IMG/VR virus record: IMGVR_UViG_3300027733_001253
Span: 124,001-188,000 of that record
DNA from: a virus
Strand: one strand, 5' to 3'
Length of the DNA stretch: 64,000 nucleotides
In this document: positions 239 to 22,472 of the stretch, in pieces
Position numbering within the stretch: position 1 is the first letter of the stretch
How the letters are laid out: the number at the start of each line of letters is the position of its first letter
Program-made: the position numbers and the translations under genes
Notes under the pieces: generated by a model
What the model saw: the letters and a program-made list of their open reading frames with translations, nothing else
Told to the model about the DNA's origin: nothing
Databases searched by the model: none

Positions 239-260
239 ATGAATTAAAAATATTATGAAT
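221..260 (+). repeat. Perfect 20-bp tandem duplication at a gene junction
   Basis: Bases 221-240 and 241-260 are identical. The unit carries the stop codon of the upstream gene and the ATGAATGAATTA start region of the downstream gene. The first copy creates a 7-codon minicistron (ATG 235, stop 256-258) that ends over the real start at 255. It looks like a recent slippage duplication. Confidence 0.9.
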
Positions 261-2584: not shown

Positions 2585-3829
2585 ATGTCACTGTATTGTG
2601 CGCTAGCATCAAATTCTATAAGTTTTGGATACGACGGAACCATAAGACCTTGTTGTGCAGTAGATACTTATTTTTGGCCCGGGCAAACACGGCATCAACT
2701 AAAGAACTATGATAATAATGTAGTAAAATGGTTTAACAATGATGAGTTAGTATCGCTAAGAACAAAACTACTAGATGGTAAATGGGATCCTATATGTAAC
2801 ATGTGTCGTACTAGAGAACAGCATGGACAAGCTAGTACCAGACAAATATTCAATAATACGTTAGATAGTGTGGAATCTAGATTAAATAAAAATCTTCATA
2901 CTGCTACTGCTACTATACCTGACTTATCTAATATATTTTTATTAGATATAACAGTGGGTAATAAATGTAATAGTGCATGTTTAATGTGTAATGAATCTGC
3001 TAGTTCACTTTGGAAAAAAGAACAAGAGATTATCACTGGTGAAAAAATGGATTGGATTACTCCAAACTGGTTTACTGAAGAAAATATACCTAACTTGATT
3101 GATAACTTACCTAACCTTAGTGCTATACAGTTTTTAGGCGGCGAACCTACAATCAATGAACCACATATATTTTTATTAAAACGATTGATTGACCAAGGTA
3201 GAGCAAAAAATATAACATTAGGATATGTAACTAATTTGACTGGAGTCTCAGATGAATTGTTAGAGTTGTGGAGTCACTTTAGTACTAAGCATATTACTAT
3301 TAGTGTAGATGGAGTAGGTCCTATTAATGAATATATTAGATACCCCTTCAGTTGGAATAAGGTAACATCACAGTTAGATAATTTAAAAGAAATTGCTAAA
3401 CAGCATGGCAATTACCATATTGGATTAAGTCATACTGTAATCTCATTGAACCTGCTCACATTGGATACTTTAATTGATTGGTGGGAAACTCAGATTGAAA
3501 CTAATTCAAGCATATTAAAAAGTCTCCCGCACATACAATGTGTTAATAACCCTGACTATTTTGATCCTATATACATGCCAAATGAGATGAAAGAGAAAGC
3601 TAAAGATACTCTACAACGAGTAATTCAATTATCTGCTGAACGCAATTTAGGAGATAAGTACACTTCGGCAATTAATAACATACTTAATACTGTAATAAAC
3701 AAACAAGTTGATAGCGAGTTGCGAATCAATAAGTGGTTAGAAATGCAAAAATTTGTTACGTCATTAGATAAGCATCGTAATAGAAATATATTTGATTATA
3801 TACCGTATATGAAAGATTATTGGATATAA
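2585..3829 (+). CDS. Radical SAM protein, twitch/SPASM-like
   Basis: This 414-residue protein has the same architecture as the gene at 255: N-terminal cysteines C23, C24, C71 and C74, then the radical SAM motif CX3CX2C at C128, C132 and C135 and a GGEPT motif near residue 191. It is probably a paralogue of that gene. The C-terminal tail is helical and charged. It begins immediately after the stop of the gene at 1613 and is followed one base later by a glycosyltransferase-like gene, so it is part of the same operon. The substrate is unknown. Confidence 0.85.
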   Translation: MSLYCALASNSISFGYDGTIRPCCAVDTYFWPGQTRHQLKNYDNNVVKWFNNDELVSLRTKLLDGKWDPICNMCRTREQHGQASTRQIFNNTLDSVESRLNKNLHTATATIPDLSNIFLLDITVGNKCNSACLMCNESASSLWKKEQEIITGEKMDWITPNWFTEENIPNLIDNLPNLSAIQFLGGEPTINEPHIFLLKRLIDQGRAKNITLGYVTNLTGVSDELLELWSHFSTKHITISVDGVGPINEYIRYPFSWNKVTSQLDNLKEIAKQHGNYHIGLSHTVISLNLLTLDTLIDWWETQIETNSSILKSLPHIQCVNNPDYFDPIYMPNEMKEKAKDTLQRVIQLSAERNLGDKYTSAINNILNTVINKQVDSELRINKWLEMQKFVTSLDKHRNRNIFDYIPYMKDYWI

Positions 3830-3830
3830 T

Positions 3831-5024
3831 ATGGGAATGATGTTAAACACCAATGCATTTTACTATCTTGATAGTATTAAAGAATTGCGTAGTGGGTCAG
3901 TATGGTGGCAGCACTTGAATTTTGTAGATAGTGATTACTACTACTATGAATTTAAACATATGTCAGTTTTTCAAATGTTTCCGATTGAAGATTTAATTCC
4001 TGCAAGAGACATACAACGAATAAGAAATAGAGAAATTAAATTAGTTGTAAATAATAGCCATGAATCATTTCACAATGTTGTTCAAGGTGTATATGAAGGA
4101 TTGATTGTAACAGCTAAACTACCACCTAGTCAAATTATTTTAATGTCAGAGTCCGCAGATATATTATTTGAAATTAGAAAATTTAGCAAATTGTATAATG
4201 TAGAAGAAATGAAATGTGTATGGACACGCATAATGGAGTTTGACATAAAATCTAACAAACAATTGATAATGTCTGTAGATGGATATACTGAACTAAACAC
4301 ACTAAAAGATAAAGTATACAATAAAAAATTTATCAACTTTAATAGAAGATGGAGATTGCATCGCCCAGTGCTGGTTAGTTTATTGTATGCTAATAACTTG
4401 CTAGACAAAGGGTATGTTAGCATGGCATCAAGTGATGACAACAGATCATGGCAAACTGTTTGGAGTAGTATGTTAAGCTGTCACGCAAATACTCCTGAGA
4501 TAGTTAATCTTTTGAAGAATAACGAACAACAGATATTAAACATGCCAAATTTGTATATCGATACAAACGATTTAGTTACAAATCGAGCAATACTAGATTC
4601 CTCTACTGATTACCTATATGAAAATACTTATTTTAGTGTAGTGTCTGAGACTAATTATTATACCAGTGATACGTTTGAAGATGGATCACCAAGTGTTAGT
4701 TACCATGGGTTTGGTAGGCATTTAACTGAAAAAGTTTTTAAAACTATAGCAAATAAACACCCGGCATTGTTAGTATCTCCTCCCCATTCTTTGATTAAAT
4801 TAAGAGAGTTAGGATACAAAACATTCTCCCCATGGATAGACGAAAGTTATGATTTAGAATTAAATGACTCTAAAAGGATGTTAAAGGTAGTAGCAGAAAT
4901 TAAAAGATTGTGCGAATTGAAACCCAATGAGTTATCAGAATTCTTAAATAACGTTAAACCAATCTGTGAATATAATCAAAAAGTGTTATTAAATCAAACT
5001 ACATTCTTAACTCAACTAAACTGA
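3831..5024 (+). CDS. GT10-like (fucosyltransferase-type) protein, family uncertain
   Basis: This 397-residue protein shares its C-terminal half with the gene at 8181: a YFSVVSET segment, then TEKVFK, a conserved proline-histidine step and a YKTFSPWIDESYD segment. That layout is typical of phage proteins resembling family GT10 glycosyltransferases, where the TEKxFK region contributes to nucleotide-sugar binding. The N-terminal part is not recognised. It follows the radical SAM operon and ends 9 bp inside the convergent gene at 5016. A role in glycosylating phage or host surface structures is inferred from the family resemblance and the neighbouring UDP-sugar dehydrogenase. Confidence 0.5.
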   Translation: MGMMLNTNAFYYLDSIKELRSGSVWWQHLNFVDSDYYYYEFKHMSVFQMFPIEDLIPARDIQRIRNREIKLVVNNSHESFHNVVQGVYEGLIVTAKLPPSQIILMSESADILFEIRKFSKLYNVEEMKCVWTRIMEFDIKSNKQLIMSVDGYTELNTLKDKVYNKKFINFNRRWRLHRPVLVSLLYANNLLDKGYVSMASSDDNRSWQTVWSSMLSCHANTPEIVNLLKNNEQQILNMPNLYIDTNDLVTNRAILDSSTDYLYENTYFSVVSETNYYTSDTFEDGSPSVSYHGFGRHLTEKVFKTIANKHPALLVSPPHSLIKLRELGYKTFSPWIDESYDLELNDSKRMLKVVAEIKRLCELKPNELSEFLNNVKPICEYNQKVLLNQTTFLTQLN

Positions 5025-6987: not shown

Positions 6988-8184
6988 GTGACAACAGTAT
7001 CAATGATTGGGGTAGGTAAATTAGGGCAAGAGTGTGCTGAAGTTATGGCACAACATTATGATGTAGTAGGTTATGATGTAGAGAACAGAAATCCTGCTTT
7101 TCCTATGAAAAAAACAATTGAAGAAGCAGTACAAGGTAGAGATATTATCTTTATTGCAGCACCCACCGCGCATGACCCCATATATGGCGGCGAGACTCCA
7201 ACTAGTCATTTGCCTAATAAAGATTTTGACTATTCTATAGTTACTAACATCTTATTGGAAGTTAATAAGTATGTAAATAAAAACCAATTAGTTGTATTGA
7301 TTAGTACAGTGTTACCGGGGACAGTTCGTAATATATTAGAACCTTGTATCACTAATGCTAGATTTATTTACAACCCATATCTTATAGCTATGGGTACTAC
7401 TAAGTGGGATATGGTAAATCCTGAAATGGTTATTATTGGCACTGATGATGGTAGTATTACTGGAGACGCAAAAGAATTGATTGAGTTCTACAAAGTGTTT
7501 ATAGAGAATGATCCTAGGTATGAAGTAGGAACATGGGATGAAGCCGAGTCTATTAAAATTTTCTATAATACGTTTATATCTACAAAAGTTGCATTAGTTA
7601 ATATGATACAAGATGTTGCTGAAACAAATGGCAATATTAATGTAGATGTTGTAACTAACGCATTATCAAAAAGTACACATAGAATCACTGGGCCTGCATA
7701 CATGAAAGCTGGCATGGGAGATGGTGGTGCATGTCATCCAAGGGATAATATTGCATTGCGTTATCTAGCCGATAGATTAGATTTAGGGTATGACTTATTT
7801 GATGCTATAATGAAAGCACGAGAAGTACAAGCAGATCGCATGGCTAAAAAATGTTTACAGTACGGCAAGAATGTTACTATTATAGGAAAAGCATATAAGC
7901 CTAGTGTGCCGTATACTAACGGAAGTGGTAGTATGTTAGTAGGACATTATATAGAACAGTACGGCGGAATAGTTAACTACTATGATGTTAATACCGGTGA
8001 TCTAGATTTAAAAACAGATAGTACAGAGGTGTACTTAATTGGTTACTGGGAGCAATGGGTAAGAGATATTGATTGGGAAAAAGAAACAAAACGAATTTAT
8101 ACTTTTATTGATCCATGGCGCGAAATGCTTCCAACGTTAGGACATGTAGTTAAGCATTATGGTAATACTAGGAAATTTAAATGA
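6988..8184 (+). CDS. UDP-glucose/GDP-mannose 6-dehydrogenase-like protein
   Basis: This 398-residue protein starts with GTG after AAGGAAA. It opens with a Rossmann fold (GVGKLG, glycines 8, 10 and 13), and the GDGGACHPRDN motif places the catalytic cysteine at C249, matching the GGxCxPKD signature of nucleotide-sugar dehydrogenases. These enzymes oxidise UDP-glucose or a related sugar to the uronic acid with NAD. A C-terminal domain follows the usual GxAYKPxxxY hinge (GKAYKPSVPY). It overlaps the GT10-like gene by 4 bp, so both probably contribute to a surface glycan. The exact sugar cannot be read from the sequence. Confidence 0.8.
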   Translation: MTTVSMIGVGKLGQECAEVMAQHYDVVGYDVENRNPAFPMKKTIEEAVQGRDIIFIAAPTAHDPIYGGETPTSHLPNKDFDYSIVTNILLEVNKYVNKNQLVVLISTVLPGTVRNILEPCITNARFIYNPYLIAMGTTKWDMVNPEMVIIGTDDGSITGDAKELIEFYKVFIENDPRYEVGTWDEAESIKIFYNTFISTKVALVNMIQDVAETNGNINVDVVTNALSKSTHRITGPAYMKAGMGDGGACHPRDNIALRYLADRLDLGYDLFDAIMKAREVQADRMAKKCLQYGKNVTIIGKAYKPSVPYTNGSGSMLVGHYIEQYGGIVNYYDVNTGDLDLKTDSTEVYLIGYWEQWVRDIDWEKETKRIYTFIDPWREMLPTLGHVVKHYGNTRKFK

Positions 8185-9270: not shown

Positions 9271-12200
9271 ATGCTACGAGATGTCTTTTATTACGGCTCT
9301 AAACCCAATATTCACCCAAGAGAAAGATTTGCAACTTCAATAGAAGATGCTAGAAATCAATGTACCACGGAACATTTTTGGATAATCAACGAACATTGTG
9401 ATTATCGTAATTTTGATTGGGATTTTGACTTTGAATTCTTGCCCGATGAGGATGTTTGGGCAGAAGAACATAACAATGTATGGCCTAGCTTTCATCAAAA
9501 AGATAGTGGCACATGGTTATGCCCTAAACAATATAGTGAAATAATTATATATCGTGCTGATGTTGATCCACTAAAAAGAAAAAACGAAAAAAACGACAAT
9601 TGGGTATTGCTAGATTTAGTTGATGAAACTAAATTTGATTTCAGTTGGCATCCAGATCCATCTAGCCCTCCATATGTATATGTATGGGGTAATAAATGGA
9701 ATCCGGTAGAATTACAACCAGTACTAGAATATCATGCTCCTTATTCGCATGATATTGATCGTAAGTATATGGATCAAGTAGTTGAATTATTACCCAGCAA
9801 AAATTTTAAAGAAATAATACCTATTGATAAGTCTAAGTTTGATTTGTCATGGAGACCTGACCCGAGAGAACCTCCGTTTGTGTATGTATGGGGTAGCAAG
9901 TGGAATGAAGCAGCGGTTGAACCTGTATTAGCTTATTATTGTCCTAACGCAACTAACAGAAAATATCTTGATACTTTATTAGACTTGATGCCTAATAAAA
10001 TTAATTGGGAAATACCTGATAACATTGACACTGCTGAATTTGATTTTAGTTGGAGACCTAATCCAACTAGTCCTCTATATATATACGAATTTGGTACTCA
10101 ATGGCAAAAGACAGGTGGGCCAAGGTATATAGTTAAAGATGCCACAGACATAAAATATATAGATATTCAAAAAGCAAAAAGATTGCCTAATAGGGAAAAC
10201 TGGAAAGAAATACTACCAGTAACTAATTTTGATTACTCATGGCACCCAGATGATACCGAACCTCCGTTTGTGTATGTATGGGGCAGCAAGTGGAATGAAG
10301 CAGCGGTTGAACCTGTATTAGCTTATTATTGTCCAGGGGCAACTAAACGAAAATATATGTTCGATGAAGTTGAATTATTGCCTGATCAAACTAATTGGGA
10401 AATACCTGATAATATTGATGCTACTAAGTTTGATTTCAGTTGGAGACCTAATCCAACTAGTCCACCATATATTTACGAATTTGCTACTATATGGAATAAC
10501 CGCGGTGGTCCAAAATATGTAGTTAAAGATGCTACACAATTTAGTTACGTAGAAGATATCAAAGCATGTACCAAAGCAAATAAAAATAACTGGAGCATAC
10601 CGTCTGACATAGACACAGAAAATTTTGATTTTACATGGGTTCCCCACCCAGATGCACCCCCATACATATATCAATTTGGTACACAACATCAAAAGACAGG
10701 TGGACCAAAATATATAGTTGAAAATGCCACTGAAATAAAATATGTAAGCGTTCAAAAAGCAAAAAGATTGCCTAATAAAAAAAACTGGAAAGAACTTCTT
10801 CCTATTGATAATTTTGATTACTCATGGCACCCTGATGATACTGACCCTCCATTAATATATGAATTTGGAACACAGCATCAAAGTACAGGTGGATTGAGAT
10901 ATGAAGTTGAAGGCGCATCTGAAATTAAATATATAGACACCTTAAGGGCAACAGTGGTTACCACAGAAATATCACCAAATTGGATCATTCCAAATACTAT
11001 TGATATTAGTCAGTTTGATTTTAGCTGGCACCCCAACACTAATGAAAAACCATACATATACCAATTTGGAACACAACATCAAAAAACAAATGGCCCAAGA
11101 TATGTAGTTGAAGATGCAACTGAAATAAAATATATAGATGATATAAAATCTGTGCGATTAGCTACAATGGTTAATTGGAAAGTATCTGATGGTATAGATG
11201 TTAGTAACTTTGATTTCAGCTGGCATCCCGATGATACCAGCCCACCGTTTGTTTATAGATTTGGTACAATATTAGATAGGGATGACGGTCCTAGATATTT
11301 GACCCCTGATAACACTGGTGAATCAGTGTATATGGAAAGAATAGTTTTAGAAAAGCCAATTGAAATTGAAAAATCTTATCCTAAATATTTGTTGACCACT
11401 TCATTAGAAGATTTGATTAAACAACATCCTGACGAAATATTTTGGGCATTAAATCCTCACATAGATTATACTAATTTTAATTTTGATTGGAAACCTAGTA
11501 TTGAGCAGTCACAGTATATTCAAGTGTTTGGTTCAAGTGAAAACACAAAAACACAAACTTTTTTAGTAAACTCTGTAATGTGGCTCAGAGGAAATACTGA
11601 GTTTAATTGGGTAGAAGAACAAATAAAAAATAAAATTGATATGTTCTTTGTTGATAGAAGTAATATTGAATCACAAACTAGATTTGAAAAACTTAAGATT
11701 AGATTCCCAAATATAATAAAGACAAGATATTTAAACAGTTGGGTCGATACAATAAATCGCTGCATCAATCGTGCTACCAGTAATTTATGTTGGATACTCA
11801 ATAGTGAATTAGATTACACTGATTTTGATTTTGAATATTATCCTAACCCATGGCAAATGAAGATGGTGCATGTGTTCGGCACTCAGTGGAGTCATTGGGG
11901 TACCACTTACTTAGTTAATAAAGAAACATTCCCGCAAGATACCAAATATATAAAAATTATTGAACATCTTTCTAACTTGAATTTTGTTAAAACTATAAAA
12001 GCCAAAGCGTCTAATGTATTGTATGATATAGTTTATATCGACCATGACAATAAAGACTTGTCTAATATCAATAACTTAATTATTAAGTATGAAACTAGTT
12101 ATTTGAATACTTTTAAGAGTATGCTAGATAAACTCCCAGTAAAAAAAGAACATTATGTGTGGGTAGCTAGTACAGTATGTGATTATAAAGATTTTGATTT

Positions 12201-13332
12201 TACTTATATTTGCGACCCATTTGCTAAAGAACACTTACATGTATTTCCTAGCGATAGGCAAAAGTTTGGTGACACATTTTTAATTGATGTTAATAAACTT
12301 AGAACATTGATTGATAATATGAACTCTTTGGAAGAGTATGGGAAGATTAACTATAATCAACATCAAAGAGTAAACCGATTGCCGGCTCCAATCATTATTA
12401 CAGAAAATGATACACATGCTTCTAGCGTAAATACTGATTTTAATTTTCCATACGCTGTGTTTGTGACTGAAGATAATAAAAACATCAATGCCGTTGATGT
12501 TGAACCAATGAATCTATGGAGCAATGAAACTAAAAATATTACTATTACTAGTACAGGTGGAACAAGAATTATAGTTCCAAAAGAAGCTAAACAGTATGTA
12601 AAGAAAGAGTTATACGATTATCCATACATTATTAAGAATAATAAACTTATAGAATCTAACCCATTGGACATTGTGTTCTTTAGTAACGGTGAAACTAGTG
12701 CTGATAGAAATTACGAACATCTATTAAAGATAACACAAGGATTACCAAACAAAATTACTAGAATAGACGGTATAAATGGTCGTGTAAAAAGTCAACACGC
12801 TGCGGCAAATAGTAGCAATACACCATGGTATTTTTTAGTAAACGCTAAATTAAAAGTATCAGCAAAGTTTGATTTTAACTGGCAACCGGACAGATTACAG
12901 ATACCTAAGCACTATATATTTCATGCTACCAATCCAGTGAACGGGTTAGTATATGGTCATCAAGCTATCGTTGCTAACAACAAAAAACTTACATTAGAGA
13001 ACTTTGGTACTGGGTTAGACTTTACAATGGATAGTGAGCATGAAGTTGTTCCTGTTAATTGTGGTATTGGTATGTATAACAGTAGTGAGTGGGATGCATG
13101 GCGTACAGCTTTCCGTGAATGTATTAAGTTAAAAGCATCCAAAACGGAAGAAAATGAAATACGATTAAATACATGGCTAACAACAGCAATTGGTGACTTT
13201 GCCGAATATAGTTTACAAGGTGCCCAACATGCTGTACAATATTATGAACAAGTCAACGGTGACTTAACACAATTACGACTAAGCTATGATTGGGTTTGGT
13301 TAAAAGAAAAATTTAAAAATATATATGAGTGA
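9271..13332 (+). CDS. 1353-residue tandem-repeat protein with glycosyltransferase-like C-terminus
   Basis: Residues of about 120-680 hold nine tandem units of 60-75 residues. Each contains FDFSWxPxP, then PPxxYxFG, then GGPxYxV and often EIKYI. At least four degenerate copies follow (FNFDWKP, FDFEYYP, FDFTYIC, FDFNWQP), each preceded by a W-x-x-N-x-x-x-D-Y-x-D-F pattern. The last 230 residues (DIVFFSNGE, NYEHLLKIT, SNTPWYFLVN) look like the donor-binding half of a GT-A glycosyltransferase, but this is a weak resemblance. There is no signal peptide. It sits between sugar-related genes and a B12-type radical SAM gene, which it overlaps by 8 bp. Function is not recognised. Confidence 0.6.
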   Translation: MLRDVFYYGSKPNIHPRERFATSIEDARNQCTTEHFWIINEHCDYRNFDWDFDFEFLPDEDVWAEEHNNVWPSFHQKDSGTWLCPKQYSEIIIYRADVDPLKRKNEKNDNWVLLDLVDETKFDFSWHPDPSSPPYVYVWGNKWNPVELQPVLEYHAPYSHDIDRKYMDQVVELLPSKNFKEIIPIDKSKFDLSWRPDPREPPFVYVWGSKWNEAAVEPVLAYYCPNATNRKYLDTLLDLMPNKINWEIPDNIDTAEFDFSWRPNPTSPLYIYEFGTQWQKTGGPRYIVKDATDIKYIDIQKAKRLPNRENWKEILPVTNFDYSWHPDDTEPPFVYVWGSKWNEAAVEPVLAYYCPGATKRKYMFDEVELLPDQTNWEIPDNIDATKFDFSWRPNPTSPPYIYEFATIWNNRGGPKYVVKDATQFSYVEDIKACTKANKNNWSIPSDIDTENFDFTWVPHPDAPPYIYQFGTQHQKTGGPKYIVENATEIKYVSVQKAKRLPNKKNWKELLPIDNFDYSWHPDDTDPPLIYEFGTQHQSTGGLRYEVEGASEIKYIDTLRATVVTTEISPNWIIPNTIDISQFDFSWHPNTNEKPYIYQFGTQHQKTNGPRYVVEDATEIKYIDDIKSVRLATMVNWKVSDGIDVSNFDFSWHPDDTSPPFVYRFGTILDRDDGPRYLTPDNTGESVYMERIVLEKPIEIEKSYPKYLLTTSLEDLIKQHPDEIFWALNPHIDYTNFNFDWKPSIEQSQYIQVFGSSENTKTQTFLVNSVMWLRGNTEFNWVEEQIKNKIDMFFVDRSNIESQTRFEKLKIRFPNIIKTRYLNSWVDTINRCINRATSNLCWILNSELDYTDFDFEYYPNPWQMKMVHVFGTQWSHWGTTYLVNKETFPQDTKYIKIIEHLSNLNFVKTIKAKASNVLYDIVYIDHDNKDLSNINNLIIKYETSYLNTFKSMLDKLPVKKEHYVWVASTVCDYKDFDFTYICDPFAKEHLHVFPSDRQKFGDTFLIDVNKLRTLIDNMNSLEEYGKINYNQHQRVNRLPAPIIITENDTHASSVNTDFNFPYAVFVTEDNKNINAVDVEPMNLWSNETKNITITSTGGTRIIVPKEAKQYVKKELYDYPYIIKNNKLIESNPLDIVFFSNGETSADRNYEHLLKITQGLPNKITRIDGINGRVKSQHAAANSSNTPWYFLVNAKLKVSAKFDFNWQPDRLQIPKHYIFHATNPVNGLVYGHQAIVANNKKLTLENFGTGLDFTMDSEHEVVPVNCGIGMYNSSEWDAWRTAFRECIKLKASKTEENEIRLNTWLTTAIGDFAEYSLQGAQHAVQYYEQVNGDLTQLRLSYDWVWLKEKFKNIYE
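9634..11310 (+). repeat. Tandem coding repeats, about 200 bp per unit
   Basis: Nine in-frame units encode the FD[FLY][ST]W-x-P and Y-x-[FW]-G motifs. Some units are nearly identical at DNA level: around 9870-9935 and 10258-10330 share long exact stretches, which points to recent duplication or gene conversion within the gene. Confidence 0.8.
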
Positions 13333-15532
13333 ATTATATCAATATAAAAAAAAGATAGTGGAATCAAGACCACTAGAGCCTGACGCTGATATTAAGCATC
13401 TGGCTATGTTGCAAGCTATTGCACCTTATGCAAAAACTAAAGTTCAAAAAAATGTAACTACTATTGATATCAACTATGCGTATAGAAAAACAAAGTTATT
13501 ATTAATACTTTGTCCAGAATGGGCACCAATGTTTCCACCGTTCAATCTTGCAAGACTGTCTGCGGTTGCAAAAGGCGCTGGATATGAATCTAATTGTATT
13601 GATTTGAATGTAAAGGCATATAACTTATCTCACAAATGGCGAAATGATGGACTTATTGATTTCGACCCGTGGGACGGCGCAAGAGATTGGAAATGGTTAG
13701 CAAAAGACTACCATAGTGATATACATCCGCATCTGAGCATTTTATTAAACAAATACATAGAACAGATTGTTAAAAATCCTCCTGACGTTATAGGATTTAC
13801 TATGTACTATACAAATGCAGAACCAGTTAAGTATATGGTGAAAAAATTAAGAGAAAGATTGCCAAATATTAAAATACTAGTAGGTGGTCCTAATATTAGA
13901 CCTTGCCAAGAACCACATGCTTGGAGTGGAGAAGATGATAATATGTTTGATTATGTTATCAATGGGGAAGGTGAATTACTTCTTTTAGAAATTTTAGAAG
14001 AAATTGAAAACGGAATAATTCACGACAAGGTTCAAAAGCTAGCACAACCTGAAGAACAAAGATTAAATTTGAATGACTTGCCTATGCCTGATTATTCTAA
14101 TTTTGATTTCAATGAATATGAATTTCCAAATGGAGTTAATAGTGAACTGAGTAGAGGTTGTACTGCAAAATGCACCTTTTGTGAAGAAACACATTTTTGG
14201 AAATATCGTCAACGCATGGCTACTGATATTCTAAAAGAAATAGAAACATTATACTATGAAAAAGGAACTGACATAGTTTGGTTTATTGATAGTTTGGTAA
14301 ATGGAAATCTAAATGAACTTAGAGCCTTCTGCAAAGGAGTCATTGCTAAAGGTATGAAAATTCATTGGACTGGATATGCAAGATGTGATGGACGAATGGA
14401 TTTAGCATTCTATCAAGATTTAGCTGATTCAGGTTGTCATATGTTAAACTATGGCATAGAGTCTGGAAGTCAGCCTGTACTAGATGATATTGACAAAGGT
14501 GTTACTATTGCTGAAATGGAACAAAACTTTATAGATGGGAAGAAAACTGGAGTAAATGCTTTTACCAATTGGATAGTAGGGTTCCCAACAGAATCATATC
14601 AAAATTTTGCAGATACAATGACTTTTTTATGGCGTAATAGAAATAACAACATAGCTAATATTGCTGCTGGATTTGGATTTGGTTTAGGTATGGATACTAT
14701 TGTTGGACAAAATCCTGATAAGTTTAATTTACTAGCACACAAGTATGCAGGTGGATGGATAACTAAAGATTTCAAACTTTCTAAATTTCATGTCATGGTT
14801 AGGATGAAAGTATTTGCAGTATTCTTGCAGCATTTGTTAACTGAAAAATCAGTTTCAATCCCGCAGCGTGGTAATTTGCCAATGCATCATTATAAAATTG
14901 TGTTTGATGATCCTACAATGCAAAAAGAAATTGAATATGAAAACTTTGATTACAATATAATACATCCTGACATCAATCCCTTTGCTGATAGTTTAGTAAA
15001 TGAAATATTTACATTGTTTAGAATACTATGGCGTACACGAGGAGGATTTACTGCTACAATTAAATTTGATCAAGATTTAGATATGATAGAATTTGGTGAA
15101 AGAAATGCCGGCCCTTATTGGGCTAATCATAATTTTACAATAGATGATGAAGGTAATTGGGAAGCAGATTTTGATTATTACTATCAACAACCGGTCACTA
15201 TTATCGATCCAGTAGATCCTTTATCGGCAAAATCTCCGTTTTTTGCACAAGATTATTCTAGACAACAATCTAATGCATCCATTCGTGCTAGAAAACTAGC
15301 TAAACCAAAGTGGGGAGACGGTGGCAGAAATCACGAAGAATTCATGGAGTTAATTGCAGAAGAAAGACATTTAAATAGTACAATTGATTTCTCATTTAAA
15401 CATAAATGGCAAGATACTGGTTCATGGGCAAATCCTGAAAGATATAACGTAGCTGTTCCTAATTCACATACTACATCTCCAAAACATTATACACCCATTA
15501 AATTTGACAAACTAGAATTTAAAAGTGTATAA
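13325..15532 (+). CDS. B12-binding domain radical SAM protein
   Basis: This 735-residue protein has an N-terminal Rossmann-type domain (VIGFTMYYTNA, ILVGGPNIRP) as in cobalamin-binding radical SAM enzymes, then SRGCTAKCTFCEE with the cluster cysteines C279, C283 and C286, and a later YGIESGSQPVL motif typical of the barrel. No clear DxHxxG histidine ligand is seen. The 200-residue C-terminal extension is not recognised. It overlaps the repeat protein by 8 bp, so the two are likely made together; the repeat protein or its product could be the substrate, but that is inference. Confidence 0.8.
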   Translation: MSELYQYKKKIVESRPLEPDADIKHLAMLQAIAPYAKTKVQKNVTTIDINYAYRKTKLLLILCPEWAPMFPPFNLARLSAVAKGAGYESNCIDLNVKAYNLSHKWRNDGLIDFDPWDGARDWKWLAKDYHSDIHPHLSILLNKYIEQIVKNPPDVIGFTMYYTNAEPVKYMVKKLRERLPNIKILVGGPNIRPCQEPHAWSGEDDNMFDYVINGEGELLLLEILEEIENGIIHDKVQKLAQPEEQRLNLNDLPMPDYSNFDFNEYEFPNGVNSELSRGCTAKCTFCEETHFWKYRQRMATDILKEIETLYYEKGTDIVWFIDSLVNGNLNELRAFCKGVIAKGMKIHWTGYARCDGRMDLAFYQDLADSGCHMLNYGIESGSQPVLDDIDKGVTIAEMEQNFIDGKKTGVNAFTNWIVGFPTESYQNFADTMTFLWRNRNNNIANIAAGFGFGLGMDTIVGQNPDKFNLLAHKYAGGWITKDFKLSKFHVMVRMKVFAVFLQHLLTEKSVSIPQRGNLPMHHYKIVFDDPTMQKEIEYENFDYNIIHPDINPFADSLVNEIFTLFRILWRTRGGFTATIKFDQDLDMIEFGERNAGPYWANHNFTIDDEGNWEADFDYYYQQPVTIIDPVDPLSAKSPFFAQDYSRQQSNASIRARKLAKPKWGDGGRNHEEFMELIAEERHLNSTIDFSFKHKWQDTGSWANPERYNVAVPNSHTTSPKHYTPIKFDKLEFKSV

Positions 15533-15877: not shown

Positions 15878-16011
15878 GATTGATGGGGGTTGACAGTGAT
15901 GGTCGGACCATGTATACTCCTAGTGGTGAGAAGATATTTTTCACACTGCCTTGGGGACTAGCATGGCGGGTGCAAGAAATCCAACATTGGATCGCTAAGA
16001 AAACTTGGTGA
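15868..16011 (+). CDS. Small hypothetical protein
   Basis: This 47-residue protein begins at ATG 15868, inside the zinc-ribbon gene, with AGGAG upstream. It contains no recognised motif beyond an aromatic-rich middle (FFTLPWGLAW). It ends just before the tmRNA locus. Confidence 0.5.
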   Translation: MFIGLMGVDSDGRTMYTPSGEKIFFTLPWGLAWRVQEIQHWIAKKTW

Positions 16012-16018
16012 TAAATAG
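16010..16018 (+). promoter_or_regulatory. T4-type late promoter motif before tmRNA (GATAAATAG)
   Basis: GATAAATAG lies directly upstream of the tmRNA acceptor piece. A start 6-8 bases downstream would give a precursor beginning near 16024, right where the acceptor piece should begin. Confidence 0.4.
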
Positions 16019-16089
16019 AAGTTATTGTTGTAATCCCTTCAAAGCGAAGGACTTCTGGACGCGGGTTCGACTCCCGCCAGGTCCACCAT

Positions 16090-16155
16090 AAGCATACTCA
16101 CTCGGATAGGTGTACGCACTTATCTTTATCAGTTTCGATCTGTAGGAGTATGCTT
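16090..16155 (+). repeat. Inverted repeat in the tmRNA intervening segment
   Basis: AAGCATACTC at 16090-16099 pairs perfectly with GAGTATGCTT at 16146-16155. It extends the acceptor stem in the precursor and would be removed when the RNA is cut into two pieces. Confidence 0.9.
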
Positions 16156-16320
16156 CTGACGGGCCTGCCCTGGTTTCGACAGAGGTAGATAGTAGAGACG
16201 GCAACACGGTAGGCGATGACCGTTAATCAAGCAAATTTCATAACTGCAAACGATGAGTTATATTCTTTAGCTGCTTAAGCTAAGGTGCAGTAGGACTTAC
16301 TGTATAAAAGAAACAACCAG

Positions 16321-16342
16321 AACCCGCTTCGGCGGGTTTCTT
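16321..16342 (+). terminator. Rho-independent terminator after tmRNA
   Basis: AACCCGC-TTCG-GCGGGTT forms a stable stem with a TTCG tetraloop followed by TCTTATT. It ends the tmRNA precursor transcript. Confidence 0.85.
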
Positions 16343-16449
16343 ATTAGTAGTAACACTAATAAAGATTCATACTTTTCACTATGTTATTTAGGTTATGGCA
16401 ACACATATAAACGATATATACAATGTCAATTTGATATAGGAGAACAATT

Positions 16450-16563: not shown

Positions 16564-16642
16564 CCATATTAAGTAGAATACATTGCGTAATCAGTGTATA
16601 CTCTTTGCTTGAATACATAATTTATTTGACAGGATTTGTCGG

Positions 16643-16673
16643 ACTAAATATTATTCTAACCCCAGAAGGGTTA
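16643..16673 (+). promoter_or_regulatory. Porin leader: ACTAAATA motif and short hairpin
   Basis: ACTAAATA at 16643-16650 also occurs before pstS (17672) and before the gene at 61723, so it may be a promoter variant. It is followed by TAACCC/GGGTTA arms at 16657-16662 and 16668-16673, 20 bases before the porin ribosome-binding site. Function is not established. Confidence 0.35.
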
Positions 16674-16696: not shown

Positions 16697-17596
16697 ATGA
16701 AGAAATATGCTTTACTCTTGGCCCTAGCATTGGCCTCAGGTTTTGTGCTAGCACAAACCGCTCCCCAAGTCAGCGTCTATGGCAAAGTACGTGAGTATCA
16801 AGAATCATACACAGCTGGTACCGCTAGTGCCCTCACTCGGTTGACCAATGACTCAAGCCGCTTAGGTGTAAAAGCCTCTAGTGATGTTGGTGATGGAATC
16901 ACCGCTGCCGTTATCATCGAAACTGGCGTAGCAATGGACGCACCAAGTGCTACCACTTTAGGTGATCGTACTTCACTCTTTAGCTTGAGCAATAATTTAG
17001 GTTCTTTAGGCATGGGTCGTGACAAGCACAGTGTAGTTCGTGTGTTGGATAACTATGACGCATTTGACAATGCGTATGGCACTATTGCCGCTACCATTCA
17101 CTCTGCACAAGGCAGTCGTTTGCAAAATGGTTTGTTCGTGAACACAGCAAGTATCGCTGGCTTCACAGGACAATATGTGATGGCTAATAGCGAAACTGCT
17201 GGAACTACTAATGTTCAGACTGGTAGCATCAGCTACACTTTGGGACCTATGTCTGCTACAGTCGCTCGTTATGATGACAGCAGCACCAGTCTCAGCACTA
17301 TCGTTGGTGTGAAATACAAATTGGTTAGTACTGGAACTACAGTGTTCGGAATGTATAGCGATGACAAGGTATCTAATGTAAGCACCACAGGTTCTAGCGT
17401 TGGTATCAGCCAAGCAATCGGTGATCGTTTTGCAGTTCAAGGTACATATGGTCAGACTAACACTAGCGTGACCGGTCGTGGTTTGGGTGTAAGCTATGCG
17501 ATGAACAAAGCATTGACATTCAATGCTCGTTGGAGTTACCTAGATGCTGCTACTGATATTAATCAATACGGTGTAGGCGTAGAATTCAATTTCTAA
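16697..17596 (+). CDS. Betaproteobacterial-type outer-membrane porin
   Basis: This 299-residue protein has a signal peptide (cleavage after VLA, about residue 19) and the Gram-negative porin layout: QVSVYGKVRE first strand, SRLGVKASSDVGDGITA, an LGSLGMGRDK turn, and a final strand ending in phenylalanine (VGVEFNF), the signal for outer-membrane insertion. General porins pass small solutes; a role in phosphate entry is inferred only from the pstS gene that follows. AAAGGA precedes the ATG. Base composition is closer to 45 percent GC, above neighbours at 1-15 kb, consistent with capture from a host. It is short for the family (usually 330-380 residues) but looks intact. Confidence 0.85.
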   Translation: MKKYALLLALALASGFVLAQTAPQVSVYGKVREYQESYTAGTASALTRLTNDSSRLGVKASSDVGDGITAAVIIETGVAMDAPSATTLGDRTSLFSLSNNLGSLGMGRDKHSVVRVLDNYDAFDNAYGTIAATIHSAQGSRLQNGLFVNTASIAGFTGQYVMANSETAGTTNVQTGSISYTLGPMSATVARYDDSSTSLSTIVGVKYKLVSTGTTVFGMYSDDKVSNVSTTGSSVGISQAIGDRFAVQGTYGQTNTSVTGRGLGVSYAMNKALTFNARWSYLDAATDINQYGVGVEFNF

Positions 17597-17614
17597 TCTA
17601 ACTCAAATTAGAAC

Positions 17615-17639
17615 AAAGGGCACTAGTTGCCCTTTTCTT
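17615..17639 (+). terminator. Rho-independent terminator after porin
   Basis: AAAGGGCA-CTAGT-TGCCCTTT with a T-rich tail (TTCTT) follows the porin stop by 18 bases. Confidence 0.85.
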
Positions 17640-17654
17640 ATGGATGTAATATTA

Positions 17655-17672
17655 CTGTCACAATTATGTCAC
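17655..17672 (+). promoter_or_regulatory. Pho-box-like site upstream of pstS
   Basis: CTGTCACAATTATGTCAC matches the PhoB consensus CTGTCATAWAWCTGTCAY at 15 of 18 positions, with both seven-base half-sites 11 bp apart as required. It lies 32 bp before the pstS start. Host PhoB controls pstS of marine cyanophages in a comparable way. The -10 position is not clear. Confidence 0.6.
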
Positions 17673-17703
17673 TAAATATTTGTGTAACACACAAGGAGAT
17701 TAC

Positions 17704-18699
17704 ATGAAAAAACTGTTTACAACATTATTGGCAGTGATAGCATTCGCTGCATCAGCACAAGAGATTACAGGAGCCGGGGCAACATTCCCGGCTCCGTTAT
17801 ATGCAAAGTGGGCGAGTGAATATAACAAGTCTACCAACATCAAGATCAACTATCAATCAGTTGGTTCAGGCGCAGGCATCAAGCAGATTGAAGCAAAGAC
17901 CGTCACGTTCGGTGCAAGTGACATGCCACTCACCGATGACAAACTTCAAGCATCAGGCTTGTTTCAGTTTCCTACAGCAATTGGTGGAGTTGTTCCGGTA
18001 ATCAACCTCAAAGGAATTGAGCCCGGACAACTACGCTTGACAGGTGCAGTCATGGCTGATATCTTCTTGGGCAAGATCACCCGTTGGGATGATGCTGCTA
18101 TCAAATCATTGAACCCGTCACTAGCATTGCCCGATCAAGCTATCACAGTGGTTCGCCGTGCAGATGGAAGTGGCACAACATTCATCTGGACCAACTACTT
18201 GAGCAAAGTCAGCAAAGAGTTCAAAGATACAATCGGTGAAGGCACTGCTGTTAGTTGGAAAACAGGAGCAGGTGGTAAGGGTAACGAAGGCGTTTCTGCT
18301 ATGGTTCGCCAACTTCCGGGGGCATTGGGCTATGTTGAATATGCTTATGTAAAACAAGCCAAGATGAACTGGGTCAATGTGCAGAATGCAGCAGGCAATT
18401 GGGTAGCACCTACAGAAGATGCATTCAAAGCAGCCGCTGCTAACGCTGACTGGAACAAGAGTTACTATCAGATATTGACTAATCAAGCAGGCAAAGAAGC
18501 ATGGCCTATCAGTGGTGCTACATTCATTCTTGTTTATGTAAAGCCAGGTGATGTTGCTGCATCTAAAACTGCTCTAACATTCTTTGATTGGGCTTTCAAT
18601 AATGGCGACAAAGCCGCAGATGAGTTAGACTATGTTGCATTACCGGCAGCAGTCAAAGCTAAGATTCGTTCTGATTGGAAACAACTAGGATTATTTTAA
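17704..18699 (+). CDS. pstS: Phosphate ABC transporter substrate-binding protein
   Basis: This 331-residue protein has a signal peptide ending ASA (about residue 19) and the PstS signature ITGAGATFPAPLYAKW. Phosphate-binding residues sit in GSGAGI, FGASDMP and RADGSGTT, in the usual order, and the length matches the family. It binds phosphate in the periplasm and hands it to the host PstCAB transporter, none of which is encoded here. The ATG at 17704 follows AAGGAGAT; an upstream in-frame start at 17680 was rejected because it lacks a ribosome site and spoils the signal peptide. It lies behind a Pho-box-like site and before a strong terminator, so it is its own transcription unit. Confidence 0.95.
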   Translation: MKKLFTTLLAVIAFAASAQEITGAGATFPAPLYAKWASEYNKSTNIKINYQSVGSGAGIKQIEAKTVTFGASDMPLTDDKLQASGLFQFPTAIGGVVPVINLKGIEPGQLRLTGAVMADIFLGKITRWDDAAIKSLNPSLALPDQAITVVRRADGSGTTFIWTNYLSKVSKEFKDTIGEGTAVSWKTGAGGKGNEGVSAMVRQLPGALGYVEYAYVKQAKMNWVNVQNAAGNWVAPTEDAFKAAAANADWNKSYYQILTNQAGKEAWPISGATFILVYVKPGDVAASKTALTFFDWAFNNGDKAADELDYVALPAAVKAKIRSDWKQLGLF

Positions 18700-18744
18700 A
18701 CCGACCTCAAGATAGAGAGGAGGCTGGAACTCGTAACCAGCACT

Positions 18745-18768
18745 AAGAGCCGAAAGGCTCTTTTTTAT
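18745..18768 (+). terminator. Rho-independent terminator after pstS
   Basis: AAGAGCC-GAAA-GGCTCTT with a six-T run. It separates pstS from the next gene by only 12 bases, leaving almost no room for a separate promoter. Confidence 0.9.
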
Positions 18769-18781
18769 TAGAATAATAATA

Positions 18782-19555
18782 ATGAAAACATATAGATCAA
18801 TTTTTATCTCTGATGTGCATTTAGGAACCAAAGATTGTCAAGCTGACAAACTCAACAACTTTCTAAAGCATAACTCATGCGATACACTATATCTAGTAGG
18901 GGATATAATTGATGCATGGCGTATCCAACAAAATAAATGGCGTTGGAAGCAGAGTCACACTAATGTAGTCCGTCGTGTTCTTGGTCACGCTAAACGTGGA
19001 ACAAGAGTTATATATGTTGCTGGTAATCACGATGAATTTCTACGCCCGATGATTCCATATGGATTCAGTTTTGGACTCGTTGAGATACACAATCAGATAG
19101 AACATATAGGTGCAGATGGCAAGCATTATCTTGTAGTGCATGGAGATTTGTTTGATGGTATAACTAGACTAGCACCTTGGATAAGTTTCTTAGGAGATTA
19201 TGCATACGATACTATCCTAGCATGGAATAGCAGATTCAATTGGATAAGACATAAGATGGGATTTGGTTATTGGAGTCTTAGTCAGTATTTGAAACAGCGT
19301 GTGAAAAAAGCTGTTGATTTTATTTTTCACTTTGAACACAACCTCGCTAAGTACTGTAAGAAGCGAGGCTTTGATGGGGTTATATGTGGACATATTCACC
19401 ATGCTGAAATCAAAGATATAGATGGAATCACTTACATGAACGACGGTGACTGGGTAGAGTCATGCACAGCATTGGTAGAGCATCATGATGGTAAGTGGGA
19501 AATAGTTACATGGACTAGAGAAAATGATCAAGACGATACTGATAATAACGGATAA
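18782..19555 (+). CDS. plcP: PlcP-type metallophosphoesterase (COG2908), likely phospholipase C
   Basis: All metal-binding motifs of the calcineurin-like family are intact: DVHLG (D11, H13), GDIID (D41), GNHDE (N82, H83), VVHGD (H120) and GHIHH (H204, H206). General annotation would call it LpxH, but the WSLSQYLKQRVKKAV stretch, the FLGDYAYDTIL segment and the ending NDGDWVESCTALVEHHDG are the pattern of the PlcP group. PlcP removes the head group of phospholipids under phosphate limitation, leaving diacylglycerol. It overlaps a glycosyltransferase of the Agt type by 32 bp, the arrangement found in bacteria that remodel lipids. Function is inferred from this pattern and context. The ribosome-binding site is weak. 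Confidence 0.75.
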   Translation: MKTYRSIFISDVHLGTKDCQADKLNNFLKHNSCDTLYLVGDIIDAWRIQQNKWRWKQSHTNVVRRVLGHAKRGTRVIYVAGNHDEFLRPMIPYGFSFGLVEIHNQIEHIGADGKHYLVVHGDLFDGITRLAPWISFLGDYAYDTILAWNSRFNWIRHKMGFGYWSLSQYLKQRVKKAVDFIFHFEHNLAKYCKKRGFDGVICGHIHHAEIKDIDGITYMNDGDWVESCTALVEHHDGKWEIVTWTRENDQDDTDNNG

Positions 19556-20522
19556 CTTACCAGAGCAAATAAATGGCGTTGTCACTACATATAAGAATAT
19601 TGAGGCGTGTGCGGTTCTGGACGACTATCGTGTTGTTTTCCTTACTCCCATGGAGTTCCTATTTTTTGATTGCCCAGGCTACAGTGAAGTTAAAATTTCG
19701 ATTCCCTGGAAGATTGGGGAGAAGATTAGGGCGGTGGCTCCGGATTATATACACATCGCCACAGAGGGTCCTCTTGGTCTCTACGCTAGATTTTATCTTG
19801 ACCGGCACTATCGTAGGTATAATACTGCTTATCATACAAAGTATCCTGAAGCCTTACATAAGTATCTAAGGATACCACAATCTATAACTTGGAAATATGT
19901 GAGATGGTTTCACAAACATAGTGGTCGTGTATTGACTACTACAGATAGTATGGTGAAGGAACTGAAAGAACATGGCTTCTGGGGCGAGATCAACTCATGG
20001 ACCCGCGGCGTTGACCGAAGCATATTTAATCCCGGTTATCGCGGCAGCAGAGGCACCGGTCCTGTGCTGTTGTGTGTGTGCAGACTCAGCATAGAAAAGA
20101 ATCTGGATGCGTTTTGCAGTTTGGATTATCCTGGTGCTCGCAAAGTATTAGTAGGTGACGGGCCGGATCGTGCTAGACTGGAAAAACTATATCCTGATGT
20201 GGAGTTCAAAGGATTCAAGACCGGCTTCGCTCTAGCACAATGCTATGCTGATGCTGATGTGTTTGTGTTTCCTTCACGGTGGGAAACATTTGGCATTGTG
20301 ATGATTGAAGCCATGGCCTGCGGCACTCCTGTAGCAGCATACCCTGTGCTAGGACCATTAGATGTTGTTGAGCAAGGTGTCACTGGATTTGTGAATGAGA
20401 ACCTAGCTGATGCTATAACTGGTTGCCTACAATTAGATAGAGATAGAGTATTAGAAGGTAGCCAGCGTTGGAGTTGGGAGAGAGCCTGGAAGATATTCCG
20501 CGACAATCTTACTCCGCTTTAA
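19524..20522 (+). CDS. agt: GT4 glycosyltransferase, Agt-like (glycolipid synthesis)
   Basis: This 332-residue protein has the two-lobed GT4 layout. The N-terminal lobe has IITDNLPEQINGVV and an IATEGPLG motif at 78-85; the C-terminal lobe has the catalytic EX7E pair E254 and E262 in WETFGIVMIEAMACGTPV. Close bacterial relatives transfer a sugar to diacylglycerol, making glycolipids that replace phospholipids. It overlaps plcP by 32 bp in another frame and ends 4 bp inside the convergent gene. The segment 19960-20520 is clearly more GC-rich than its surroundings and uses more G/C-ending codons, which suggests recent transfer. The acceptor is inferred. Confidence 0.75.
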   Translation: MIKTILIITDNLPEQINGVVTTYKNIEACAVLDDYRVVFLTPMEFLFFDCPGYSEVKISIPWKIGEKIRAVAPDYIHIATEGPLGLYARFYLDRHYRRYNTAYHTKYPEALHKYLRIPQSITWKYVRWFHKHSGRVLTTTDSMVKELKEHGFWGEINSWTRGVDRSIFNPGYRGSRGTGPVLLCVCRLSIEKNLDAFCSLDYPGARKVLVGDGPDRARLEKLYPDVEFKGFKTGFALAQCYADADVFVFPSRWETFGIVMIEAMACGTPVAAYPVLGPLDVVEQGVTGFVNENLADAITGCLQLDRDRVLEGSQRWSWERAWKIFRDNLTPL

Positions 20523-21130
20523 TCTTCATAATCTTGACGCAAGTCAGGATCAATCAACTGCCCACGCATCAGATATAATGGACTCTTGCGATAGATGACA
20601 GCATCATGGAATGGATCTGTCATTATCTTTAAGCACCATACTAGTGCTACTTTGCGGCTTTGAATAGCAGTAAGTTGTATCATTCTAAACACAACTGCTG
20701 CTAATCCTAACCATAACCAACCCCAACCAATCCTATCTATTAGTGTGTCTGGTGCAGCGTCTGGCATCACAAAGTTAAACAATGCCGCATCAAAGTATGC
20801 CAGCAACGGCACAGCCAACCAGCAAGCGATCAATACTCGTTTGCGTTTGAGATTGTATCCAATCTTGATAGCCTCTTTATGATCTTGTGTGGCCTGATTG
20901 TATGTGTCGTAATCTTTGGGTTCAAAGAAGAAATGTCCTGCTTGTCTTGTAGTCATTGAGATAAACCACGCGATGTAAGCACTAATTACGGGATCAATGA
21001 ATAGATAAGCATATGCTACTATGAATGATAATGCACTAATTAAATGCAAAAATTGATTTATCCTGCTGTGATGATAATAGCGATGATCGTCCCAGCGTTG
21101 CACTCTTAATGTCTCTAGTATTTCTTTCAT
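20519..21130 (-). CDS. Polytopic membrane protein, possibly Mpo1/DUF962-like
   Basis: This 203-residue protein has about four hydrophobic segments. Conserved histidines lie at the N-terminus (HHSRINQFLH, near residues 20-29), and a GHFFFEP motif sits near residue 66. Histidine-rich segments around the first helices and a GHxxFE motif recall Mpo1/DUF962 proteins, which shorten fatty acids by alpha-oxidation; the match is partial. It converges on the Agt-like gene with a 4-bp overlap. A lipid-related job is suggested by context only. Confidence 0.45.
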   Translation of the reverse strand: MKEILETLRVQRWDDHRYYHHSRINQFLHLISALSFIVAYAYLFIDPVISAYIAWFISMTTRQAGHFFFEPKDYDTYNQATQDHKEAIKIGYNLKRKRVLIACWLAVPLLAYFDAALFNFVMPDAAPDTLIDRIGWGWLWLGLAAVVFRMIQLTAIQSRKVALVWCLKIMTDPFHDAVIYRKSPLYLMRGQLIDPDLRQDYED

Positions 21131-21506: not shown

Positions 21507-21520
21507 GGTATTACCTATTC
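21501..21520. repeat. Hairpin between convergent genes
   Basis: GAATAGG at 21501-21507 pairs with CCTATTC at 21514-21520, overlapping both stop codons. There is no long T-tract, so termination is possible but not clear. Confidence 0.4.
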
Positions 21521-22155
21521 ATTAAATCGTTAGTGAAATCTAACAACAATTCGTGCTGCTCGCCGCCGTGCCACTTGCCCTTCATGTAGCTGTAGCTATC
21601 ATACCAAAACTGTTCACTTTCAGGATGACAACCAATCAGTCCTATGCGTTTTTGATAGATAGCCATCGCATCACCATTTGCGTATGTAGCGACCGTTCTG
21701 AATTTGTGTCTATTGCCAACTAGCGAACACCCATCATAGAAGAACATGTTCATGGGTTCGTCTTTCCATGTTATTGCTAAGTTTTTAGCATGTGGTCTAC
21801 GTGTATCAGTACCAGGTTGTTTGATATACTGTACCGCATCAACATCATCTAGTACATTCAAGTAATGACTACCTGCCCAATATGCACCCATACAGATACC
21901 TAAGTATCTACCGCCACCATGGATGAAATCTTTTACTCGTTTTCCGTTGTTTTTGAAAAGTTGTTTGAATGTATCACTATCCCCGATCCCTCCCGGAACA
22001 GCAATCATATCTACCCCGTCAAAGAAATCGTATTCTAACTTATTTTTACTAAAGATTTTGAAGTTATAATACTCACTTAAAGCCTTCATCATCCCGTTTC
22101 CTGATTGGACGGAGCATTTCGGGTCGTACAAGAATAATGCGATTGTGGGTTTCAC
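21511..22155 (-). CDS. Class I glutamine amidotransferase-like protein (BPL_N type)
   Basis: This protein has 214 residues when started at the GTG at 22155. It contains a GGIGDSD loop, then GGGRYLGICMGAYWAG, where the cysteine lies at the nucleophile elbow of class I glutamine amidotransferase-like folds, and a later IGCHPESEQFWY with the expected histidine and glutamate. Similar proteins form the N-terminal domain of some biotin-ligase-like and phage proteins. Reaction and partner are unknown. The GTG start was chosen because a CATAAATA motif lies just upstream and because the longer frame to 22236 adds a cysteine-rich stretch without similarity. Confidence 0.6.
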   Translation of the reverse strand: MKPTIALFLYDPKCSVQSGNGMMKALSEYYNFKIFSKNKLEYDFFDGVDMIAVPGGIGDSDTFKQLFKNNGKRVKDFIHGGGRYLGICMGAYWAGSHYLNVLDDVDAVQYIKQPGTDTRRPHAKNLAITWKDEPMNMFFYDGCSLVGNRHKFRTVATYANGDAMAIYQKRIGLIGCHPESEQFWYDSYSYMKGKWHGGEQHELLLDFTNDLMNR

Positions 22156-22160
22156 AATCT

Positions 22161-22168
22161 TATTTATG
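22161..22168 (-). promoter_or_regulatory. T4-type late promoter motif, minus strand (CATAAATA)
   Basis: CATAAATA on the minus strand is 5 bases before GTG 22155, implying a leaderless or nearly leaderless message. Confidence 0.4.
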
Positions 22169-22186
22169 TTTGTACAACATCCTTGA

Positions 22187-22206
22187 CATAAATACCAAAA
22201 GGTATT
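22187..22206 (+). promoter_or_regulatory. T4-type late motif plus short hairpin
   Basis: CATAAATAC at 22187-22195 is followed by AATACC/GGTATT arms (22191-22196 and 22201-22206). It is 23 bases before ATG 22218 and divergent to the motif at 22161-22168. Confidence 0.35.
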
Positions 22207-22217
22207 ATAATAACAAT

Positions 22218-22472
22218 ATGAAAATCCAAACAGCACTAGATTGGCAAGAAGTATCAGATAGACTAAAGACTGATCTACACCGCATGGGTTACAATCCAGA
22301 CTTGAAAAAGATGTATGATAATATTCAAGTTATGGTGACCGAACTAAGCAAACTTGAAGTAAATGGTCGTAGAATTCGCAGTACAGATTATACCCAAACT
22401 CAAGTTGACAACATTAATAAAGCGATAGACCACTTGGAAAAGCTAATTCTGATGGGCCTACTAATGAAATAA
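22218..22472 (+). CDS. Small hypothetical protein
   Basis: This 84-residue protein is largely helical and charged, with many leucines spaced for a coiled coil in the last 40 residues. No family was recognised. The ATG at 22218 was preferred to the upstream in-frame ATG because the latter overlaps the divergent promoter region. It is the first gene of an early-type cluster. Confidence 0.5.
   Translation: MKIQTALDWQEVSDRLKTDLHRMGYNPDLKKMYDNIQVMVTELSKLEVNGRRIRSTDYTQTQVDNINKAIDHLEKLILMGLLMK

Follow-up and report, generated by a model that had tools for sequence, protein, structure and literature searches.

A putative phospholipid-remodelling gene pair behind pstS on a T4-like jumbo phage

In this study, we analysed a stretch of 64,000 nucleotides (hereafter, the window; positions refer to it unless stated otherwise) that covers bases 124001-188000 of the 230,993-base virus record IMGVR_UViG_3300027733_001253, and we focused on four neighbouring genes that may deal with phosphate and membrane lipids. 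Because the record carries a gp23 capsid gene, DNA polymerase, clamp loader and baseplate wedge genes, all of T4 type, and a ribonucleotide reductase gene, it is a viral sequence of a T4-like jumbo phage. The four genes encode a porin-like outer-membrane protein of 299 amino acids (16697..17596), the periplasmic phosphate-binding protein PstS of 331 amino acids (17704..18699), a metallophosphoesterase that is predicted to be a PlcP-type phospholipase C (plcP, 18782..19555) and a glycosyltransferase of the GT4 type that is predicted to be the diacylglycerol glycosyltransferase Agt (agt, 19524..20522). The last two genes overlap by 32 nucleotides. The initial annotation had pointed out these four consecutive genes, and all of the open reading frames are present, in this order and on the plus strand. 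Including the regulatory features described below, the order is porin gene, hairpin, Pho box, pstS, terminator-like hairpin and plcP-agt.

The phosphoesterase contains a Metallophos domain (PF00149) and shares 55% identity with PlcP of Pseudomonas aeruginosa (PA3219 allele) and 50% identity over 241 amino acids with PlcP of Sinorhizobium meliloti, and both values exceed the 45% that the two bacterial proteins share with each other. Both bacterial loci used as references could be identified from the genes next to plcP. In P. aeruginosa (L232), plcP is followed by a glycosyltransferase gene and then by an adenylate cyclase gene, which we take to be cyaB in the layout PA3219-PA3218-cyaB, and in S. 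meliloti (L231), plcP adjoins genes for an acyl-homoserine lactone synthase and a LuxR regulator, so that it is presumably SMc00171 beside sinI/sinR. PA3219 and PA3218 have been characterised in P. aeruginosa (PMC8528852). The calcineurin-type two-metal ligands D, H, D, N, H, H, H are conserved in the window copy and in 154 viral relatives. According to crystallographic work, an arginine at one signature position of the metallophosphoesterases is unique to LpxH, whereas the others have histidine (PMC5016852). The phage protein reads GNHD where LpxH reads GNRD, and the position holds histidine in 154/154 viral and 86/86 bacterial PlcP sequences and arginine in 25/25 LpxH sequences. The LpxH models score far below their cut-offs against the phage protein (TIGR01854, 35 bits with a cut-off of 190; NF003743, 44 bits with a cut-off of 134), and identity to Escherichia coli LpxH is approximately 25% over 109 amino acids. 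A tree of the phosphoesterase, which the initial annotation had named as a check, places LpxH and PlcP in separate groups with support of 100, and the main phage PlcP group forms one clade (99) that is joined by sequences from Hyphomonadaceae, from pelagiphage Mosig and from L125. We reject an identity as LpxH because of the signature residue, the model scores, the identity values and the tree grouping. The assignment as a PlcP-like protein holds, as the initial annotation had read from its pattern, and phospholipase C activity is predicted.

The downstream glycosyltransferase matches the domains Glycos_transf_1 (PF00534), PF13692 and Glyco_transf_4 (PF13439), contains an E-x7-E motif (E254/E262) and is 43% identical over 318 amino acids to P. 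aeruginosa Agt1 (PA3218). In a tree with WcaI, WcaC, WaaB and WaaG of E. coli, the branches were saturated and the tree was uninformative, and a genome-wide test of adjacency to plcP was used in its place. A search of 200 Pseudomonadota genomes returned strong matches (177-320 bits) in 52, while other GT4 proteins scored at most 122 bits. According to a count made by hand from the genome positions of both genes, the best match lies directly downstream of plcP in 34 of these 52 genomes, 13 have plcP elsewhere and five have no plcP match. The assignment as a predicted Agt holds, and the description as an Agt-like GT4 given in the initial annotation can be kept. Elsewhere in the window, a gene for a nucleoside diphosphate-sugar dehydrogenase (6988-8184) could in principle supply uridine diphosphate (UDP)-glucuronate.

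The pairing of plcP with a glycosyltransferase gene is widespread among viruses. A scan of viral contigs found at least 598 stretches encoding PlcP relatives, of which 80, 84-100% identical, were kept, and a second scan found 319 stretches encoding Agt relatives. Among loci that were fetched by PlcP alone and that had enough downstream sequence, a glycosyltransferase gene follows plcP on the same strand in 71/71, as the next gene in 66 and as the second gene in five; these loci are interrelated and do not represent 71 independent events. The enzyme is Agt in 26 loci and an unrelated glycosyltransferase of the GT2 type in 45. This GT2 did not occur next to any of the bacterial plcP genes that we retrieved, and it is possibly a new lipid glycosyltransferase. 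Its nearest NCBIfam model is TIGR04283, which it matches below the cut-off (L016, L019-L021, L024-L028, L068:6901-7617 and others). Relative to the window copies, the ratio of nonsynonymous to synonymous substitution rates is approximately 0.04-0.06 for plcP and 0.12 for agt, with synonymous sites near saturation in most pairs and seven plcP pairs usable, and purifying selection on both genes is strong. Because hundreds of viral contigs carry the pair and purifying selection acts on it, its occurrence goes far beyond chance. The sampled carrier records reach 524 kb and are mostly fragments; a T4-type capsid gene is present in 10/27 of them, including the record studied here, and a T4-type portal gene in 8/26. 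Among isolated phages, PlcP relatives are limited to Mosig, S-SRM01 and some distant matches, and neither Mosig nor S-SRM01 has a glycosyltransferase gene beside it.

The identity of PstS is certain from its matches to curated models, which it exceeds widely (NF008171, 427 bits with a cut-off of 339; TIGR00975, 390 bits with a cut-off of 205), and its PHROG match is a phosphate transporter subunit. The gene naturally begins with the ATG at 17704, since the TTG at 17680 given in the list of open reading frames lies too far upstream. Directly before pstS, at 17645..17672 on the plus strand, lie two overlapping exact matches to the Pho box pattern TGTMAY-N5-TGTMAY, formed by 11-bp direct repeats. 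Nowhere else in the 231-kb record does the pattern match exactly. The reversed control pattern likewise has two matches in the record, so the argument rests on position and not on number. We therefore counted the pattern within 160 nucleotides upstream of viral genes. A Pho box precedes 14/17 viral pstS genes and 46/115 viral plcP genes (41/106 of those not behind pstS and 5/9 of those behind it), compared with 4/1,499 other genes that served as controls; before viral agt genes the count is 0/83. After reduction to leaders less than 65% identical, the counts are 6/8 for pstS and 16/47 for plcP. Because the spacers vary while the repeats persist, selection on the Pho boxes is likely. The leaders of Mosig and S-SRM01 have no strict Pho box. 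A generic consensus, CTGTCATN4CTGTCAT, was also scanned across the window and showed no excess (8 found vs. 6.3 expected); the signal appeared with the TGTMAY form, for which the position relative to genes was considered. The Pho boxes link plcP and pstS with phosphate starvation, more strongly than was visible to the initial annotation, and they suggest that the host regulator PhoB may control these genes in this phage.

Based on these observations, we consider it probable that the phage carries a phosphorus-salvage module that is switched on by host PhoB and feeds membrane phosphorus to the phage genome. PstS would boost the capture of periplasmic phosphate for the Pst transporter of the host. 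PlcP would split host phospholipids into diacylglycerol and a phosphorylated head group, from which host phosphatases would free the phosphate. Agt would glycosylate the diacylglycerol and thereby prevent its build-up, and the resulting sugar lipid would keep the membrane intact until lysis. Overall, a large phage genome could thereby draw on the phosphorus of the membrane in infected, phosphorus-starved cells. An E. coli-sized cell contains roughly 2 x 10^7 phospholipids. Because each copy of the 231-kb genome contains 462,000 phosphorus atoms, the membrane could supply enough phosphorus for tens of phage genomes, and for fewer in small lake bacteria. In bacteria, PlcP is required for the formation of diacylglycerol from phospholipid, and Agt makes glucosyl- or glucuronosyl-diacylglycerol at low phosphate (PMC4796936, PMC8528852). 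The phage enzymes presumably have the same activities, and the arrival of the freed phosphorus in phage DNA is likewise presumed. A broader proposal, which we hold to be roughly as likely as not, is that lipid remodelling of a phage-specific kind exists: a PlcP lineage maintained in T4-like phages, always accompanied by an Agt GT4 or a GT2 and placed in the PhoB regulon of the host, would replace phospholipids with glycolipids, which may include new ones, in infected cells starved of phosphorus, and the phosphorus would go into phage DNA.

Several observations weigh against phosphorus salvage as we have described it. A terminator-like hairpin (18745..18762, plus strand) separates pstS from plcP-agt, which has no Pho box of its own. 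Pho control of plcP-agt in this phage would therefore need read-through, and the arrangement suggests that the pair depends on it. Consequently, the single cassette of the initial annotation stands with regard to the adjacency of the genes but is not supported as one transcript. In L013, a near relative without pstS, plcP directly follows the same Pho box and leader, which points to a gain or loss of pstS between the two. The plcP leader with its hairpin (18700-18781; L013:1250-1335) is shared by both phages, and attenuation is possible there. In addition, pstS was seen in only 8/27 records of plcP phages, most of which are fragments. The product of PlcP is a phosphorylated head group and not free phosphate, and a phage phosphatase for this step was not identified. 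In the tree, the joining point of LpxH is ambiguous, since a grouping of the phage clade with LpxH is not rejected (approximately unbiased test, p 0.53). For this reason we make no claim that the phage clade originated within the bacterial PlcPs, and it may be their sister instead of being nested among them.

The scarcity of pstS would also fit a different explanation, in which the lipids are remodelled but the gain lies in membrane charge or curvature against competing phages, in stress resistance, in virion assembly or in lysis, and not in phosphorus. In other systems, phages attach differently when lipids change (PMC9938194), and genes for a fatty-acid desaturase, an Mpo1-like protein and a RimK-like protein also occur near plcP. 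However, the Pho boxes connect both plcP and pstS with phosphate starvation, and in pelagiphage Mosig the plcP gene adjoins a phosphate-transporter gene; we regard this explanation as unlikely. It is highly improbable that the phosphoesterase acts on lipid A in the manner of LpxH and that the glycosyltransferase adds sugars to lipopolysaccharide or capsule, so that the genes would modify the cell surface instead of exchanging membrane lipids. Database annotation of the PlcP relatives as UDP-2,3-diacylglucosamine diphosphatase and the weak matches to LpxH models point in that direction, as does the predicted structure (mean predicted local distance difference test score 79, with the insert region poor), for which LpxH provides the nearest solved fold at a template modelling score of approximately 0.55. 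Such a resemblance is expected within a superfamily with a common metallophosphoesterase fold. LpxH differs from the phage protein in its substrate and in its signature residue, and the model scores, the close identity to true PlcP proteins and the tree, as given above, all speak against this explanation.

Whether the porin-like gene belongs to the salvage module as an outer-membrane entry route for phosphate is a separate matter, and we find this unlikely. The gene lies directly upstream of pstS, and phage porin genes occur near plcP in 5/71 loci. However, no Pho box precedes any of the seven phage porin genes (0/7), and many plcP phages have no porin gene. The gene is preceded by a sigma-70-like promoter of its own (TTGACA-17-TATTAT, 16626..16654, plus strand, 11/12 consensus matches), a call that is weak alone since such consensus scans give equally many sites in shuffled sequences. 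It is followed by a terminator-like hairpin (17615..17635, placed here on the plus strand and listed on the minus strand by the scan) that also occurs in L013, and it is probably a separate transcription unit. The protein has no Pfam family match of its own and no phosphate-porin match; its phage homologue in L045, 51-52% identical, matches Porin_4 at 84 bits, and its weak match in the PDB is PorB (E 0.0038). Phage porins can instead replace receptors, as is the case for the Lc protein of phage PA-2. The initial annotation had assigned phosphate import to PstS and the porin together; the part concerning PstS stands, with scores above curated cut-offs and a Pho box upstream, whereas the role of the porin is not supported.

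In its two enzymes and in their order, the gene pair agrees with PlcP-Agt of P. aeruginosa (PA3219-PA3218), SAR11 strain HTCC7211 and related bacteria, and Pho-box control is common to the bacterial genes and many phage copies. It differs from its bacterial counterparts in that a T4-like jumbo phage carries it, that the main phage copies group in a clade of their own and that pstS precedes plcP. S. meliloti PlcP (SMc00171) has the same metal site, although no agt lies beside it in the locus seen. The Pelagibacter phage Mosig EXVC030M provides a plcP relative (48% identity) in an isolated phage; unlike the situation here, the gene has no adjoining glycosyltransferase gene, it is annotated as UDP-2,3-diacylglucosamine hydrolase, and plcP is not mentioned in the genome announcement. 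Phage pstS with an upstream Pho box resembles the pstS genes of cyanophages, which are under host PhoB control, and we know of no lipid enzymes in the phosphate modules of cyanophages.

That phages carry metabolic genes for taking up phosphate is well established, whereas a membrane phosphorus-salvage pathway on phages does not appear in the open literature searched. We found no open-access report of a phage plcP, or of plcP as an auxiliary metabolic gene, in a search that did not cover subscription journals and preprints. The open-access papers that came closest concerned only bacterial remodelling or phage attachment. The metabolic genes listed for a viral metatranscriptome of Lake Baikal include 'lpxH' and a desaturase (PMC9611531), and viral genes reported under 'lpxH' or lipopolysaccharide biosynthesis, such as in that survey, may actually be plcP. 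If our interpretation is correct, phage replication would have a new source of phosphorus in phospholipids, a large pool of cellular phosphorus. Virus production would also be connected with the phosphorus status of waters, and the lipids released on lysis would be altered.

Just upstream of the four genes, at 15973-16343, the phage encodes a permuted beta-type transfer-messenger RNA (Rfam RF01850, 155.6 bits; tag ANDELYSLAA). Because of this RNA, the host is probably betaproteobacterial, and not one of the marine groups that the initial annotation had in mind. No GenBank phage DNA near-identical to window positions 22500-46000 was found. Downstream of agt and convergent with it lies a gene for an Mpo1-like membrane protein (20519..21130, minus strand), with a weak PF06127 match (19.8 bits with a cut-off of 24), which is possibly a further lipid gene. 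Its family is represented by 15 gene copies near viral plcP, and the Mpo1-like genes of the phage and of the P. aeruginosa locus neighbourhood have no recognisable homology. A further gene (21511-22236, minus strand) is BPL_N/glutamine-amidotransferase-like, and this family is the commonest neighbour of viral plcP other than glycosyltransferases (52 gene copies in the examined loci). In ten loci (L034, L066, L083, L099, L106, L107, L117, L159, L161 and L164), a gene for a RimK-like ATP-grasp ligase lies between plcP and agt. DesA-like fatty-acid desaturase genes occur near plcP in 7/71 phage loci (e.g., L159:9033-9746, minus strand), and genes for a CHASE2-adenylate cyclase and a FecR-domain protein adjoin plcP-agt in the large phage contigs L083, L099, L133, L159 and L161, where they may form a signalling unit.

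A 1353-amino-acid protein without an NCBIfam match is encoded at 9271-13332. Arrays of radical S-adenosylmethionine and SPASM-like genes, together with a gene for a PhpK-like B12 radical S-adenosylmethionine protein, were noticed at positions 255-5024 and 13325-15532 of the window as well as at 4.8-19 kb and 120.7-124 kb of the record.

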